64,000 bases of DNA. Origin: Alphaproteobacteria bacterium (GTDB lineage Bacteria; Pseudomonadota; Alphaproteobacteria; Micropepsales; Micropepsaceae). The translations under genes were made by a program, and so were the position numbers. The stretch covers positions 1-64,000 of the forward strand of contig CANJJD010000008.1 in assembly GCA_947474645.1 (NCBI GenBank). The letters run 5' to 3'. The notes beneath the pieces were generated by a model that saw only the letters and a list, made by a program, of their open reading frames with translations, was not told where the DNA came from and made no database searches. Position 1 is the stretch's first letter. Every line of letters starts with the position of its first letter. Positions 48,338-54,092 of the stretch are shown one piece after another.

Positions 48338-49083
48338 TCGGAACCGCCCACATCGGGGGTCTGCCAGATCAGGTGCTGGCCGCCATCCACCGCGATCATC
48401 TGGCCGGTAACGGCCGGCGCTTCCAGCAGGTAGCGCACGGCGGCGCAGATGTCGGACGGATCGGCGCCATGCCCCAGGATGGTGGCGTCGCGCTGGCGGT
48501 TGAAGTCGGCATCGGACTGGCGCGGATTTTTCAGGGTGGGGCCGGGGCCCACGGCATTGACCCGGATGCGCGGTCCCATGCCTTGCGCCAGGGTGGTGGT
48601 CAGCCAGTAAAGCCCCGCCTTGCTGACGCTGTAGGACAGGAACTGCGGCGTGGGCTTCAGCACCCGCTGATCGATGATGTTGATGATGCTGCCTTGCGCG
48701 TCTGCCGGAAGCTGTTTGGCGAAAGCCTGCGACAGCACCAAGGGCGCGCGCAGGTTGGTCTCGATGTGATCGTCCCAGCTTTTGCGGCTGGCGCTTTGCC
48801 AGTCATCATTCTCGAACAAAGACGCGGAATTGATCAGCGCGGTCAGCGGTCCGATCTCGCGCGCGGCGCGCTCCACCAGCGCGGCGGTCTCGGTTTCCTT
48901 CGACAAATCGCATTTCAGGGTCGCGGCGTCCACGCCAAAGGCGCGTGCCGCCTGTACGGCGCTGTCGGCATCCTCTTCTGAGCCATGATAATGGACCGCC
49001 ACGTTCCAGCCCACCGATGCCAGGTCCAGGGCGATGGCCCGTCCCAGCCGCTTGGCGGCGCCGGTGACCAGGACGTTTTTCAC
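48334..49083 (-). CDS. FolM/PTR1-like short-chain dehydrogenase
   Basis: 249 residues. NAD(P) loop [20 protein letters not shown] at the N-terminus, where TGAAKRLG is characteristic of pteridine-reductase-like SDRs. [13 protein letters not shown] lies near 86, the catalytic [20 protein letters not shown] near 149, and a final [15 protein letters not shown]. Coupling to folB (ATGA) supports a dihydromonapterin or dihydrofolate reductase role, as for FolM. The exact substrate is inference. It also overlaps trpS upstream by four bases. Confidence 0.87.
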
Positions 49084-50096
49084 GTAATGAAGCCTACGGT
49101 CTTTTTGACGTCTTCCATGATGGGCGTGGCGATGGCGCGGGCCTTTTGCGCGCCGTCCTTCAGGACCCGGTCGATCTCCGCCGGGTCGGCCAGCAACCGG
49201 CGCATCTCGGTTGTGATCGGTTCCAGCTTGGCCACCGTAAGGTCGGCCAGCGCCGACTTGAAGGTGGAGAAATTCTGGCCGGCGAACTGGATGATCACCG
49301 CGTCACGCTCCTGGTCGGACAAGGCGGCATAGATGTTCAGCAGGTTCTCCGCCTCGGGGCGATCCTTCAACTCGTCCTTGGTGCCGGGCAGGGGATGGGG
49401 ATCGGTCTTGGCGCGCTTGATCTTGTCGGCGATCGCGTTGGCATCGTCGGTCAGGTTGATGCGGCTATTGTCGCTTTCGTCCGTCTTGGACATTTTTTTG
49501 CTGCCGTCGCGCAAGGACATCACCCGCGTGCCGGCGCCGGTGATCACCGGCTCGGGCTGGGGGAAGAAATCGGGCACGCCGAAATCATTGTTGAACTTGG
49601 CGGCGATGTCGCGCGCCAGTTCCAGATGCTGCTTCTGGTCCTCGCCCACCGGCACATGGGTGGCGCGATAGACCAGAATGTCGGCCGCCATCAGCACCGG
49701 ATAGGTATAAAGCCCGACGCTGGCGCGTTCCTTGTGCTTGCCCGACTTTTCCTTGAACTGGGTCATGCGGTCCAGCCAGCCCAGCCGCGCCACGCAGTTC
49801 AGCACCCAGGCCAGCTCGCCATGCTCGGGCACCTGGCCCTGGTTGAAGATGGGCGTGCGCTTGGGGTCCACTCCGGCGGCGATATAGGCGGCGGCAACCT
49901 CGCGGGTGGAACGGGTCAGGTCGGCGGCATGGGCATAGCCCGCATCCTGGGTGATGGCATGCATGTCCACCACGCAGAACAGGCAGGGCATCTGGTCCTG
50001 CATCCGCACCCAGTTCTTCAGCGCCCCCAGGTAATTGCCCAGGTGAAGCGTGTTGGTGGGCTGCATGCCCGAAAGGACGAGGGGGGAATGTTTCAT
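49080..50096 (-). CDS. trpS: tryptophanyl-tRNA synthetase
   Basis: 338 residues. The class I HIGH-like motif is in [20 protein letters not shown] at the N-terminus, KMSKS-like in [20 protein letters not shown] near residue 195. [20 protein letters not shown] near 128 holds tryptophan-site residues. It charges tRNA-Trp. It lies 8 bases after glnD. In several other alphaproteobacteria murJ sits between glnD and trpS, but not here. Confidence 0.96.
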
Positions 50097-50104
50097 GGCG
50101 CGGG

Positions 50105-52870
50105 TTATGCCTTGGCGGGCGCAGGTGTTTCAAGCGCCGCTTTCAACCGCTTTTCCACGGTATCCAGGCGGGCGGGATGGACGATCTTGTGGCCGAAGCC
50201 GTCGCGCACATAGAAGACGTCGATCGCCCGCTCGCCATAGGTCGCCACCATGGAGGTGGAGATGGAAAGGCCGGCTTCGAAGATGGCCTGGGTGATGTCA
50301 TAGAGCAGGCCCGGCCGGTCCAGGCATTCCACCTCGATCACGGTGGCGATGCGCGAGGCCTCATTGTCGAACTGGATCTTGGGCCGGATGGTGAAGGCGG
50401 ATGCCCGGTTGCGCTGGACCTTGCGCGCCAACTCGCGGCGCGGCCGCACCTGGCCGCGAAGGGTTTTTTCGATGGACTGGGCCAGCCGCCCCAGCCGCTC
50501 GGCATCGCCAAAGGCGTCACCTTCGGAATCCTGCACCGAGAACACATCCAGCGCGAAGCCGTCAGAGGTGGTGAAGGCCTTGGCGTCCACGATGGAGCCG
50601 CCCGACAAGGCGATGGCGCCGGCGAACTGCGAGAACAGGCCGGCATTGTCAGGCGTGTAGAGAATGATCTCGGTGACGGCGCGGAAATTGTTGGTGGTGG
50701 CGTTAAGCGTCAGGAGCTGCCCTTCCGCATCGGCCTTGCCGACCAGCCGGGCATGGCGCTCTAGTTCATCCGGATCGAAAGCCAGCCAGTAATTGTCGTA
50801 ATGACGGGTCAGGGCACGCTCGCGATTCGCCGGCGTAAAATCGGAAAGTCGCCGTTCCAGCTCCGCCTTGGCGGCGGCGACGCGCGCGCCGCGGCCGGGC
50901 GCCTGGTCGCCGCCGGTCATCATGTGATCGGCGGCATAATAAAGTTCGCGCAGCAACTGGCCCTTCCAGCCGTTCCACACGCCCGGACCCACGGCCCGAA
51001 TATCGGCCACGGTCAGGATCACCAGCAGGCGCAGCATCTCCGGCGACTGCACCATGTCCACGAAATCGCGCACCGTCTTGGGATCGGACACGTCGCGGCG
51101 CTGGGCGGTGTCGCTCATCACCAGGTGGTTCTTCACCAGCCAGGCCACGGCGGTGGTGTCGGCGGCCGACAATCCCAGGCGCGGGCACAGGCTGCGCGCG
51201 ATCTCCGCCCCCACATCGCTGTGATCGCCGGGCAATCCCTTGGCCACGTCATGCAGCAGGATGGCGCAGTACAGCACGTTGCGCGACTGGATGCGCTTGA
51301 TGATGTCGCTGGTGAGGGGATTGTTTTCCTTGTGGTCGCCGCGCTCGATGGCCGCGACATTGCCCACGGCGCGGATCAGATGCTCGTCCACCGTATAGTG
51401 GTGATACATGTTGAACTGCATCAGCCCCACGGCATGGCCGAATTCCGGCACAAAGCGGCCCAAGACACCCGCCTCGTTCATCAGGCGCAAGGCGCGTTCG
51501 GGATCGTGGCGCGATGTCAGCACTTCCAGGAAAGCCTGATTGGCCACCGGGTTCTGGCGCACCGCATCGGTGATCAGGTCGAGGCTGCGGGTGACGGTGC
51601 GCAGCGCGTCGGGATGAATGTCCACGCCCTTGATGTCGGCGATGTGGAACATGCGCAGGATGTTGGCGGGGTCCTGGCGGAAGATGCTGGGATTGGCGGT
51701 CAGCCGCCCATTTTCGACATAGAACTCATCGTCCGGGCTGCGGGCTTTCAGAAAGCCCGGCAGGATGCTTCTCAGCGAGGGGCGGGGCTTGCGATGTTGT
51801 TCCTCCAGCGCGGCGCAGAAGATGCGGGTCAGGTCGCCCACATCCTTGGCCACCAGGAAGTAGGCGCGCATGAAGGCTTCCACCGCCCGGCGCGGCTTGT
51901 CGGCATCGACATAGCCCAGCGCCGCCGCCAGTGATGGCTGCACGTCGAAGCTCAAGCGTTCCTCGGCGCGCGCCAAGAGGTAATGCAGACGCACGCGCAC
52001 ATTCCACAGAAAGGCTTCCGCCTTCTGGAAGGTGCGGTATTCCTCGCGGGTGAACACACCGTGTTCCACCAGGTTGGCGGCATCGTCCACGTGATAAAGA
52101 TACTTGCCGATCCAATAGAGGGTCTGCAGGTCGCGCAGGCCGCCCTTGCCCTCTTTGATATTGGGCTCGACCAGATAGCGGCTTTCGCCCTGGCGCTGAT
52201 GGCGGATGCTGCGCTCGGTCAGCTTGGCTTCGACAAAGTCGCGGCCATTGCCGGTGGCGACTTCCTTCCAGAATTTGCTGCGCAGTTCTTCGTATAGCCC
52301 GCGATCGCCCCACAGGTAGCGCGCTTCCAAGACGGCGGTGCGGATGGTGACGTCCGACTTGGCCAGCCGCACGCTTTCGGCCAGCGACCGCGTGGCATGG
52401 CCGACCTTCAGGCCCAGATCCCACAGCATGTAGAGGATGAACTCGATGACGCTTTCGCCCCAGGCGGTCTGCTTGAAGGGGCGCAGGAACAACAGGTCGA
52501 TGTCCGATCCCGGCGCCAGCTCACCGCGGCCATAGCCGCCGGTCGCCACCACCGCGATGCGCTCGGCGCTGGACGGGTTCTGGGCGTAGTACACATGCTT
52601 GACGGCGAAGTCGTAGATCACCTGGATGATGCTGTCCTGCAACTGCGACAGGGCGCGCGCCGCCGCCAGGCCGGGCAGGCCTTCCTTCTCGACTGCGTAC
52701 TGAACCTTGGCGCGGCCGTCGGTGAACGCCTGCTTGATCAAAGCGAGGCCGGCCTTGCGCAGGTTTCCCGTCTCGCCATTGTCCTTGGCCAGGGCGGTGA
52801 GGTCGCGGCGCAGACCTTCGGCGTCGATCAGGTCGCGCAACGCAAGGCTTTGGGGTTTTTCGAGGCCCAT
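50105..52870 (-). CDS. glnD: [protein-PII] uridylyltransferase / uridylyl-removing enzyme
   Basis: 921 residues. The nucleotidyltransferase domain has [20 protein letters not shown] near residue 108. The GlnE/GlnD linker follows. The HD domain has [20 protein letters not shown] near 522. Two C-terminal ACT domains (about 715-795 and 830-905) bind glutamine, with [20 protein letters not shown] and [20 protein letters not shown]. It uridylylates PII proteins at low glutamine and reverses this at high glutamine, controlling nitrogen assimilation. First gene of a run down to pgsA. Confidence 0.97.
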
Positions 52871-52927: not shown

Positions 52928-53515
52928 TTACTTGGCTTTTTTGCGCAGGCTCCCGTCCCATTTGGCGGGCCCGCGGGTGCGGATCACCACCCCGCAGGCG
53001 ATCCTGTCGCCGGCATTGCCAAGCGGCTGGGTGCGATAATCATCCCCCCGCGCATCCAGGATGATGGAGACCCCATCGCGGTCGAAGATGCTGCGCTTGC
53101 CGTTGCCGATGGAAAAGCCGGTGGTCAGCGTGCTGGCATGAAGCCGCCCGTCGGCGCCGGCGAACTGGTTGGGCAGATCGCCGGCCAGCGGCCCGCCCTC
53201 GGCCAGGAAGCCGTGCTTCTTGCCGGGCGTCAGGCTCAGGATCGGCCCGGCGCTGGTGAAGCCGGTCTTGGGATCGCACTTGGCGGAGGTGTGCAGGTGG
53301 ATGGCATGGGCGCCGGGCGGCAGGCCCTGCAGGTCGAAGGTGACCAGCACGCCACGATTGACGGCATCGAACGTCACGGTGCCGACCGGCTTGCCCGCCA
53401 GGTTGGACAGCCTGGCGACGGCCTTGGCCTTCAGGGCGGCCACGGCCGGCGCCGCCAGCAAGAGGGGCGTGCCCGCCAGGGCGAACGCGGCGATGAACAA
53501 GGCAATCCGGCCCAT
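52928..53515 (-). CDS. Cu/Zn superoxide dismutase-like protein with degraded metal sites
   Basis: About 195 residues from ATG 53515 (MGRIALFIAAFALAGTPLLL, then AAPAVAALKA), a secreted protein. The SOD fold is recognised from PVGTVTFDAVNRGVLVTFDL, GLPPGAHAIHLHTSAKCDP, TSAGPILSL, KKHGFLAEGGPLAGDLPN and DDYRTQPLGNAGDRIACGVV. The first copper histidines (HLH) and the THG-type histidine remain. The bridging histidine of AGPHFNP is replaced (AGPILSL), the RHVGDLGN histidine is absent (PLAGDLPN), and the copper histidine of IVVHAxxDD is Asp (IILDARGDD). It is therefore unlikely to be an active dismutase. It may bind one metal or have a structural role. Confidence 0.8.
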   Translation of the reverse strand: MGRIALFIAAFALAGTPLLLAAPAVAALKAKAVARLSNLAGKPVGTVTFDAVNRGVLVTFDLQGLPPGAHAIHLHTSAKCDPKTGFTSAGPILSLTPGKKHGFLAEGGPLAGDLPNQFAGADGRLHASTLTTGFSIGNGKRSIFDRDGVSIILDARGDDYRTQPLGNAGDRIACGVVIRTRGPAKWDGSLRKKAK

Positions 53516-53618: not shown

Positions 53619-54092
53619 ATGCGCTTTTTCCTGATGGCCGCCACGGCCAGCCTTTTCAGCCTTTCCACCGTCATGATGATGGCCCAGGAGGCCCAGGCGG
53701 TGCAGGACACACCCGTCACCATCAACGGGGTCGAGGCCGTCTGCACCGGCGTCGGCTCGGCCAAGGATGACCCGCGCTGGGCCGCCTATCCGATCAAGGT
53801 CGTGCTGGCCACCATGGGCGGCGCCAACCTGGCCAATGCCCATGTCAGCCTGAGCAAGGGCGGCGCCGAAGTGGCGGGCCTGGATTGCGATGCGCCCTGG
53901 GTCCTGTTCAAGGCGCCGGGCGGCAGCTACACCGCCCACGCCACCCTGATCGGCGGCAGCGGCCGCTCCAGCAGCACCAATTTCTCCACCACCGGTTCGG
54001 GCCCGCAGAAGGAAATCACCATCACCTTCCCGCTGCCGTCCAACGGCGTCAGCCTGCCGGCCGGCACGGTGCCGCCGCCTGCCGACCATTAA
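53619..54092 (+). CDS. secreted hypothetical protein, 157 residues
   Basis: The N-terminus is a signal peptide (MRFFLMAATASLFSLSTVMM, then MAQEAQA). The mature part contains two cysteines (VEAVCTGVGS; GLDCDAPW) that could form a disulfide, and a beta-rich segment (WVLFKAPGGSYTAHATLIGG) like the carboxypeptidase-regulatory or transthyretin-like folds. It ends with a proline tail. I do not know its family. It is exported to the periplasm by inference. It stands alone, with a multi-hairpin repeat following. Confidence 0.65.
   Translation: MRFFLMAATASLFSLSTVMMMAQEAQAVQDTPVTINGVEAVCTGVGSAKDDPRWAAYPIKVVLATMGGANLANAHVSLSKGGAEVAGLDCDAPWVLFKAPGGSYTAHATLIGGSGRSSSTNFSTTGSGPQKEITITFPLPSNGVSLPAGTVPPPADH

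Follow-up and report, generated by a model that had tools for sequence, protein, structure and literature searches.

The window, by which we mean the whole 64,000-nucleotide stretch of contig CANJJD010000008.1 analysed here, carries on its minus strand a sodC-like gene that is set between glnD and a gene for a secreted protein (Table 1), in the order csp (minus), divergent secreted protein (plus), sodC-like gene (minus) and glnD (minus). The sodC-like gene and glnD are possibly carried on one transcript: no terminator-like site was found between them, and the promoter scan returned a single site only, on the plus strand inside the sodC-like ORF. A further minus-strand ORF at 49080-50096, presumably encoding a tryptophanyl-tRNA synthetase-like protein, starts 8 bases downstream of glnD, so that the sodC-like gene may be the first of a longer operon. 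As read from the sequence, translation would begin at the ATG at 53515, which has GGAGG 5 bases upstream; a TTG that would extend the ORF to 53557 is possible but less likely. Judging from its N-terminus, the product would be exported by the Sec route to the periplasm. The divergent 157-aa protein, with two conserved cysteines and a VCTGVGSAKDDPRW-like motif, represents a conserved family with homologs in 70 of the 96 genomes of the bacterial family, often beside the sodC-like gene.

Table 1. Features of the sodC-like locus. Positions are those of the window; conventional SOD1 numbers stand in brackets; the window clade (14 members) is the clade of the SodC-like protein within a group of 37 orthologs.
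Feature	Position	Strand	Basis or occurrence
SodC-like protein, putative pseudo-superoxide dismutase	52928..53515	-	195 aa; PF00080, AlphaFold2 model, YojM fold match
Putative Sec-type signal peptide, residues 1 to ~26, MGRIALFIAAFALAGTPLLLAAPAVA	53438..53515	-	read from translation
H73 (H46) and H75 (H48), copper-side ligands, HLH motif, kept	53291..53299	-	alignment; H75 invariant in 37/37 orthologs
C80 (C57), putative disulfide partner of C174 (C146), kept	53276-53278	-	invariant in 37/37
I92 replacing bridging histidine H63	53240..53242	-	I in 14/14 window-clade members
H101 (H71), zinc-side ligand, kept	53213..53215	-	invariant in 37/37
L110 replacing zinc histidine H80	53186..53188	-	L8 E3 M2 Q1 in window clade
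D113 (D83), zinc aspartate, kept	53177..53179	-	14/14 window-clade members
D154 replacing fourth copper histidine H120	53054..53056	-	D9 N2 K2 T1 in window clade
R171 (R143, channel arginine) and C174 (disulfide cysteine), kept	52994..53005	-	invariant in 37/37
glnD, PII uridylyltransferase	50105..52870	-	NF003467, 1302 bits; 57 bases downstream of sodC-like gene
Divergent neighbour, secreted 157-aa protein	53619..54092	+	no Pfam or NCBIfam match

Residues 45-177 of the SodC-like protein match Pfam PF00080 (Sod_Cu) with 104.3 bits (E 8.9e-30; gathering cut-off 28.9 bits), and at this level of sequence similarity a chance resemblance to SodC is excluded. The best NCBIfam model, NF047632 (SodCCaul), reaches 123.7 bits, far below its curated cut-off of 250, and the catalytic ligands are missing in the SodC-like protein. 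An AlphaFold2 model built from 37 sequences (pLDDT 88.6, pTM 0.80) matches the Greek-key SOD barrel and has Bacillus subtilis YojM among its top folds (1s4i; Z 24.0 over 149 residues, rmsd 1.6), in agreement with the claim of the sequence-only reading that the fold motifs are intact. The top folds within one Z unit comprise YojM, its mutants and a Deinococcus Cu/Zn SOD (Z 23.5), with bovine and human SOD1 below them (Z ~21.5); by sequence, the best matches among solved structures are YojM and a Bacteroidetes Cu/Zn SOD. A structure described as calcium-bound, 9m59, ties with YojM (Z 23.5), but the calcium lead was rejected, as the calcium sits in a propeller domain and the SOD domain of 9m59 binds copper and zinc.

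Metal ligands were assigned by alignment with relatives in this bacterial family that have every ligand. Three of the seven ligand residues are lost, that is, two of the four copper ligands and two of the four zinc ligands, the bridging position being counted in both. These are the bridging histidine, a zinc histidine and the fourth copper histidine, the very three that the sequence-only reading had given as replaced, and the motifs on which it drew (AGPILSL, PLAGDLPN, IILDARGDD, HLH and KKHG) are all present in the minus-strand ORF. The channel arginine R171 required of a catalytic Cu/Zn SOD is present, as is D159 (D124), but only two of the four copper histidines remain, and of the zinc set (three histidines, one of them bridging, and one aspartate) only H101 and D113 are left. 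The same reading had proposed that the protein cannot work as a normal Cu/Zn dismutase; given this loss of ligands, such activity is very likely absent. Among the residues specific to the window clade (at least 11 of the 14 members: V52, P66, L74, G85, I92, L93, L95, G120, V149, R161, T162 and V177) there is no new histidine, cysteine, methionine, aspartate or glutamate, and no replacement histidine, cysteine or methionine dominates the clade, so the possibility that the ligands have merely shifted to a functional arrangement elsewhere finds no support. A sequencing error or other artefact was rejected as the source of the loss because 14 orthologs of one clade have lost the same three positions.

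A proposed similarity to copper-only SODs did not hold. These enzymes (the fungal SOD5 type and animal CSRP) are likewise extracellular, with a SOD fold and a lost zinc site, but in the excerpted account of PMC13017621 they have a working copper site and no loop VII. The copper site of the SodC-like protein is broken at the bridging and fourth copper positions (H63 and H120 equivalents), the latter being variable within the window clade, and we rejected copper-only SOD as an unlikely identity. The features do agree with those of a YojM-like pseudo-SOD: a SodC barrel, a broken copper site and an N-terminus that points to export.

Next, the wider distribution of the gene bears on how often such losses have occurred. 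Profile search of the window genome (2.64 Mb in 54 contigs, 99.6% complete) found no PF00080 match other than the SodC-like gene itself. Within the family, whose 96 genomes are also those of the order in the genome sample, 57 genomes carry 62 PF00080 matches in total, of which 61 (all but that of G085) were retrieved to form the 61 rows of the ligand table. In four orthologs (G016, G026, G039 and G052) a stop lies inside a longer profile match, but by coordinates the match simply runs past the end of the gene. A tree was built from 58 rows without the ligand columns and recovered one ortholog group of 37 (support 96/98), which is adjoined by the full-ligand copies L002 and L004. The 37 genes lie mostly near glnD and csp, and we take the sodC-like genes of the group to be positional orthologs. 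In the retrieved flanks, several of which are too short, glnD was found at 14/14 window-clade, 4/7 full-ligand and 9/13 M/L-clade loci (the M/L clade is described below), and a homolog of the divergent neighbour at 13/14, 7/7 and 1/13 loci, respectively.

Seven of the 37 intact genus orthologs retain all ligands (L003, L005, L006, L007, L008, L012 and L015) and 30 are without at least one copper ligand. Single rows have lost H63 (L019, H63D), H120 (L020, H120T with D124N) or both (L024, H63D with H120N). In the 13 members of the M/L clade (L031, L037, L039, L041, L042, L046-L051, L056 and L060), H46 is replaced by M, L or T, H63 by D or V and H80 by R or K, while H75 and H101 are retained in 13/13, D113 in 12 and H154 (H120) in 11/13. 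The 14 members of the window clade (support 100/100) share H63I, together with H80 to L, E, M or Q and H120 to D, N, K or T. Losses were counted on a tree from which two further loop columns were omitted besides the ligand columns. The state "any copper ligand lost" requires 4 changes by parsimony (of 1000 bootstrap trees, 924 give 4, 38 give 3 and 38 give 5), loss of H63 requires 4 (949/1000) and loss of H120 requires 5 (985/1000). A tree forcing all 30 ligand-lost rows together was marginally rejected (AU p 0.046), for a group that was named after the first tree had been seen. Several independent losses gain weight from the fact that the replacement residues differ between lineages; some deep branches are weak (bootstrap 81-87), and that copper ligands were lost in about five lineages of the genus, with different replacements, is therefore a reading of these sequences.

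Across the class, such losses are much rarer. An even sample of 240 genomes contained PF00080 in 49, three of these in the genus, and 47 of the 48 class copies from outside the genus were aligned, of which 46 have a residue at each of the four copper positions. Copper-ligand loss was seen in 2 of these 46, as opposed to 30 of the 37 genus orthologs (Fisher p 1e-13, a value that overstates the contrast because the rows are non-independent events). The two are L115 (H120Y) and L143, a SodC-like gene of a 1.2-Mb alphaproteobacterial genome in which H120Y is combined with loss of the zinc site (H80 to Y, D83 to G); by its sequence, L143 is likely another pseudo-SOD. A different pattern is seen in separate SodC paralogs (L009, L010, L011, L013, L014, L016, L017, L018, L022; L023, L027, L054), where all four copper histidines are present and the zinc ligand H80 is replaced by D or E; D or E also occupies this position in 12 of the 47 class-survey copies.

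If the metal site has been taken apart, has the rest of the protein been held? Of 47 columns that are invariant in nine full-ligand sequences, those replaced in all 14 window-clade members comprise 3 of the 7 ligand columns and 2 of the 40 other columns (Fisher p 0.019); the latter two are position 52 and position 93, which adjoins the bridging residue. In a clade whose tree sums to 4.65 changes per column, 31 of the 40 non-ligand columns are unchanged in all 14 members. In these alignments, the metal site is dismantled and most other residues are held. The replacements extend into the loop beside the bridging residue, which reads GPHFxP in 6/7 full-ligand orthologs, GPILxL in 14/14 window-clade members, GP[DV][LFW]x[FL] in 13/13 M/L-clade members and GPDLSF in L024; L019, with GPDFSP, is an exception to the loop change that usually accompanies H63 loss. 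We read these changes as probably filling the emptied site, in the SodC-like protein with I92, L93 and L95.

Rates of change, estimated by pairwise counting, which is crude, on GC-rich codons, also point to constraint. For the six closest pairs of each group, dN/dS spanned 0.20-0.45 (window clade), 0.22-0.53 (full-ligand orthologs) and 0.16-0.39 (M/L clade); where a named locus had glnD in range, the corresponding medians were 0.42 (91 pairs), 0.41 (6) and 0.32 (10). Relative to that of glnD, median dN was highest in the window clade (2.11 over 91 pairs, compared with 1.46 over 6 in full-ligand orthologs and 1.64 over 10 in the M/L clade), which would therefore evolve somewhat faster.

Taken together, the interpretation we prefer is that the gene encodes a periplasmic pseudo-superoxide dismutase that has been conserved for a non-catalytic role, one probably older than the loss of the ligands, and we give this an even chance of being correct. 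On this interpretation the protein would be a stable SodC beta-barrel that retains its disulfide cysteines but whose copper-zinc site has been dismantled and is probably occupied in part by the three hydrophobic side chains. Such a barrel would not dismutate superoxide and would probably need no metal to fold; by sequence, its independence of metal is likely. The barrel itself would be kept for a job in the envelope, most likely the binding or support of another envelope component.

The strongest rival holds that the genus can now do without periplasmic SOD activity and that the gene is slowly leaving, its ligands having gone first. Several observations fit such a decay. No relative of the sodC-like gene was found at any of 12 further genus loci, at five of which (L147, L149, L150, L151 and L154) the divergent neighbour and glnD lie adjacent without it; the copy of the nearest relative, L053 (2895-3609)/L087, is split in two frames, being either a pseudogene or an assembly error; and an Fe/Mn SOD is found in 81 of the 96 family genomes as well as in the window genome, where it is encoded on the contig of the sodC-like gene (C8:72157-72453). 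The faster change of the window clade relative to glnD also weighs against the preferred reading. However, L053 is the one ortholog with a stop inside its Pfam-domain stretch, the dN/dS of about 0.4 equals that of the full-ligand orthologs, and the non-ligand columns just described have largely stood still. We consider decay unlikely, but it is the alternative to be taken most seriously.

Somewhat less probable still, in our view, is a single-metal protein with a new site, formed for example by H73, H75 and D154 or by H101 and D113, that would serve metal binding, sensing or other redox chemistry. The leftover ligands H73, H75, H101 and D113 are unchanged in 14/14 clade members and an aspartate such as D154 can be a ligand, so that the suggestion of the sequence-only reading that a single metal may be bound stands as a possible H73/H75/D154 site in this one protein. 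It does not extend to the clade: 5 of the 14 members have N, K or T at position 154, unlike what would be expected of a conserved single-metal site, position 110 varies among L, E, M and Q, and the M/L clade retains a different ligand subset.

That the protein serves another SodC, as a CCS-like chaperone or as its partner in a heterodimer, seems quite improbable. The idea could draw on the human copper chaperone, since the excerpt of PMC13017621 describes a replacement of the fourth copper histidine by aspartate in CCS domain II as well, and on a second, D80-type SodC in 4 of the 14 clade genomes. But the zinc site is intact in the human domain and not in the SodC-like protein, 9 further clade genomes are, like the window genome, without a second PF00080 match, and with no client SodC in the almost complete window genome this role was rejected there. 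Equally hard to credit is that the ORF owes its retention chiefly to an effect in cis, as the first cistron of a glnD transcript with a promoter or leader role. The gene does directly adjoin glnD on the same strand in 13/13 named window-clade loci, while glnD lies 1.2-4.4 kb downstream in the full-ligand loci L073, L076, L077 and L080; against a cis role stand the constraint at the protein level, a distance to glnD of 0.7-4.9 kb in the five, out of seven named M/L-clade loci, that have glnD in range, and the five genus genomes that have the neighbour and glnD but not the gene. That the protein is still an active dismutase through rearranged ligands is the least credible of all, as the fold, the channel arginine and two copper histidines remain but the bridging and fourth copper histidines are gone without a clade-dominant substitute histidine, and YojM, also without two copper ligands, is said to be inactive.

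Known relatives lend some support to the preferred reading of a kept, non-catalytic barrel. YojM, the top sequence match (~33-36% identity), is likewise a bacterial SodC barrel without two copper ligands, the bridging histidine among them, and the excerpt of PMC10432803 states that it does not bind copper and is inactive. The two proteins differ in which ligands went: YojM has lost the equivalents of H48 and H63 and, by alignment, retains H80 and H120, whereas the SodC-like protein has H48 and has lost H63, H80 and H120. The restoring mutants of YojM appear among the structure matches under the names Y88H and P104H, and no reported role was found in the literature searched for YojM, the closest solved inactive relative. 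CCS domain II is a SOD-fold domain without dismutase activity that, in the excerpt of PMC13017621, has lost its copper site and acts through contact with SOD1; CCS differs in having extra copper domains and in serving a partner SOD, whereas the SodC-like protein is a lone domain. Closest to an envelope role comes DR_0644 of Deinococcus radiodurans, a SodC-like protein with a signal peptide that has lost a copper histidine and much of the zinc site and that is described, in the portions of PMC9823218 and PMC12362111 we draw on, as a trimeric collar in an S-layer envelope complex. It differs from the SodC-like protein, which retains the channel arginine, in having lost that residue and in being trimeric by those same accounts. 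The portion of PMC9823218 describes DR_0644 as a Cu-only SOD whose activity was measured using the isolated complex, and that of PMC12362111 questions its SOD capacity. DR_0644 thus offers a model for a structural envelope role, and, as far as these partial accounts go, a non-catalytic role has been reported or proposed both for it and for CCS domain II, two metal-lost SodC relatives, which supports the non-catalytic reading.

It is tempting to speculate that this holds for the genus as a whole. The grading of its members from intact to stripped suggests a second job that has no need of enzyme activity; the non-catalytic role would probably have been present already in the full-ligand orthologs, in which case catalysis could have been given up repeatedly. 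That the periplasmic SodC of the genus has a second, metal-independent function, which preserved the gene once about five lineages had given up catalysis, is a more tentative proposal than that for the single protein, and one we put forward as plausible rather than probable. No report of the window clade was found in the literature searched, which left out most subscription papers. For annotation, the findings carry a warning, since all 30 orthologs without a copper ligand exceed the Pfam cut-off for Cu/Zn SOD. Inactive SodC relatives have previously been described singly; what is new here is to see a graded series in a single genus. As one gene runs here from the full ligand set through single losses (L019, L020) to stripped clades, a non-catalytic role of SodC becomes directly testable. 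If the proposal is true, the orthologs, graded from full enzyme to stripped barrel, would amount to a natural mutational experiment in which the dismutase activity of SodC is set apart from its other function.
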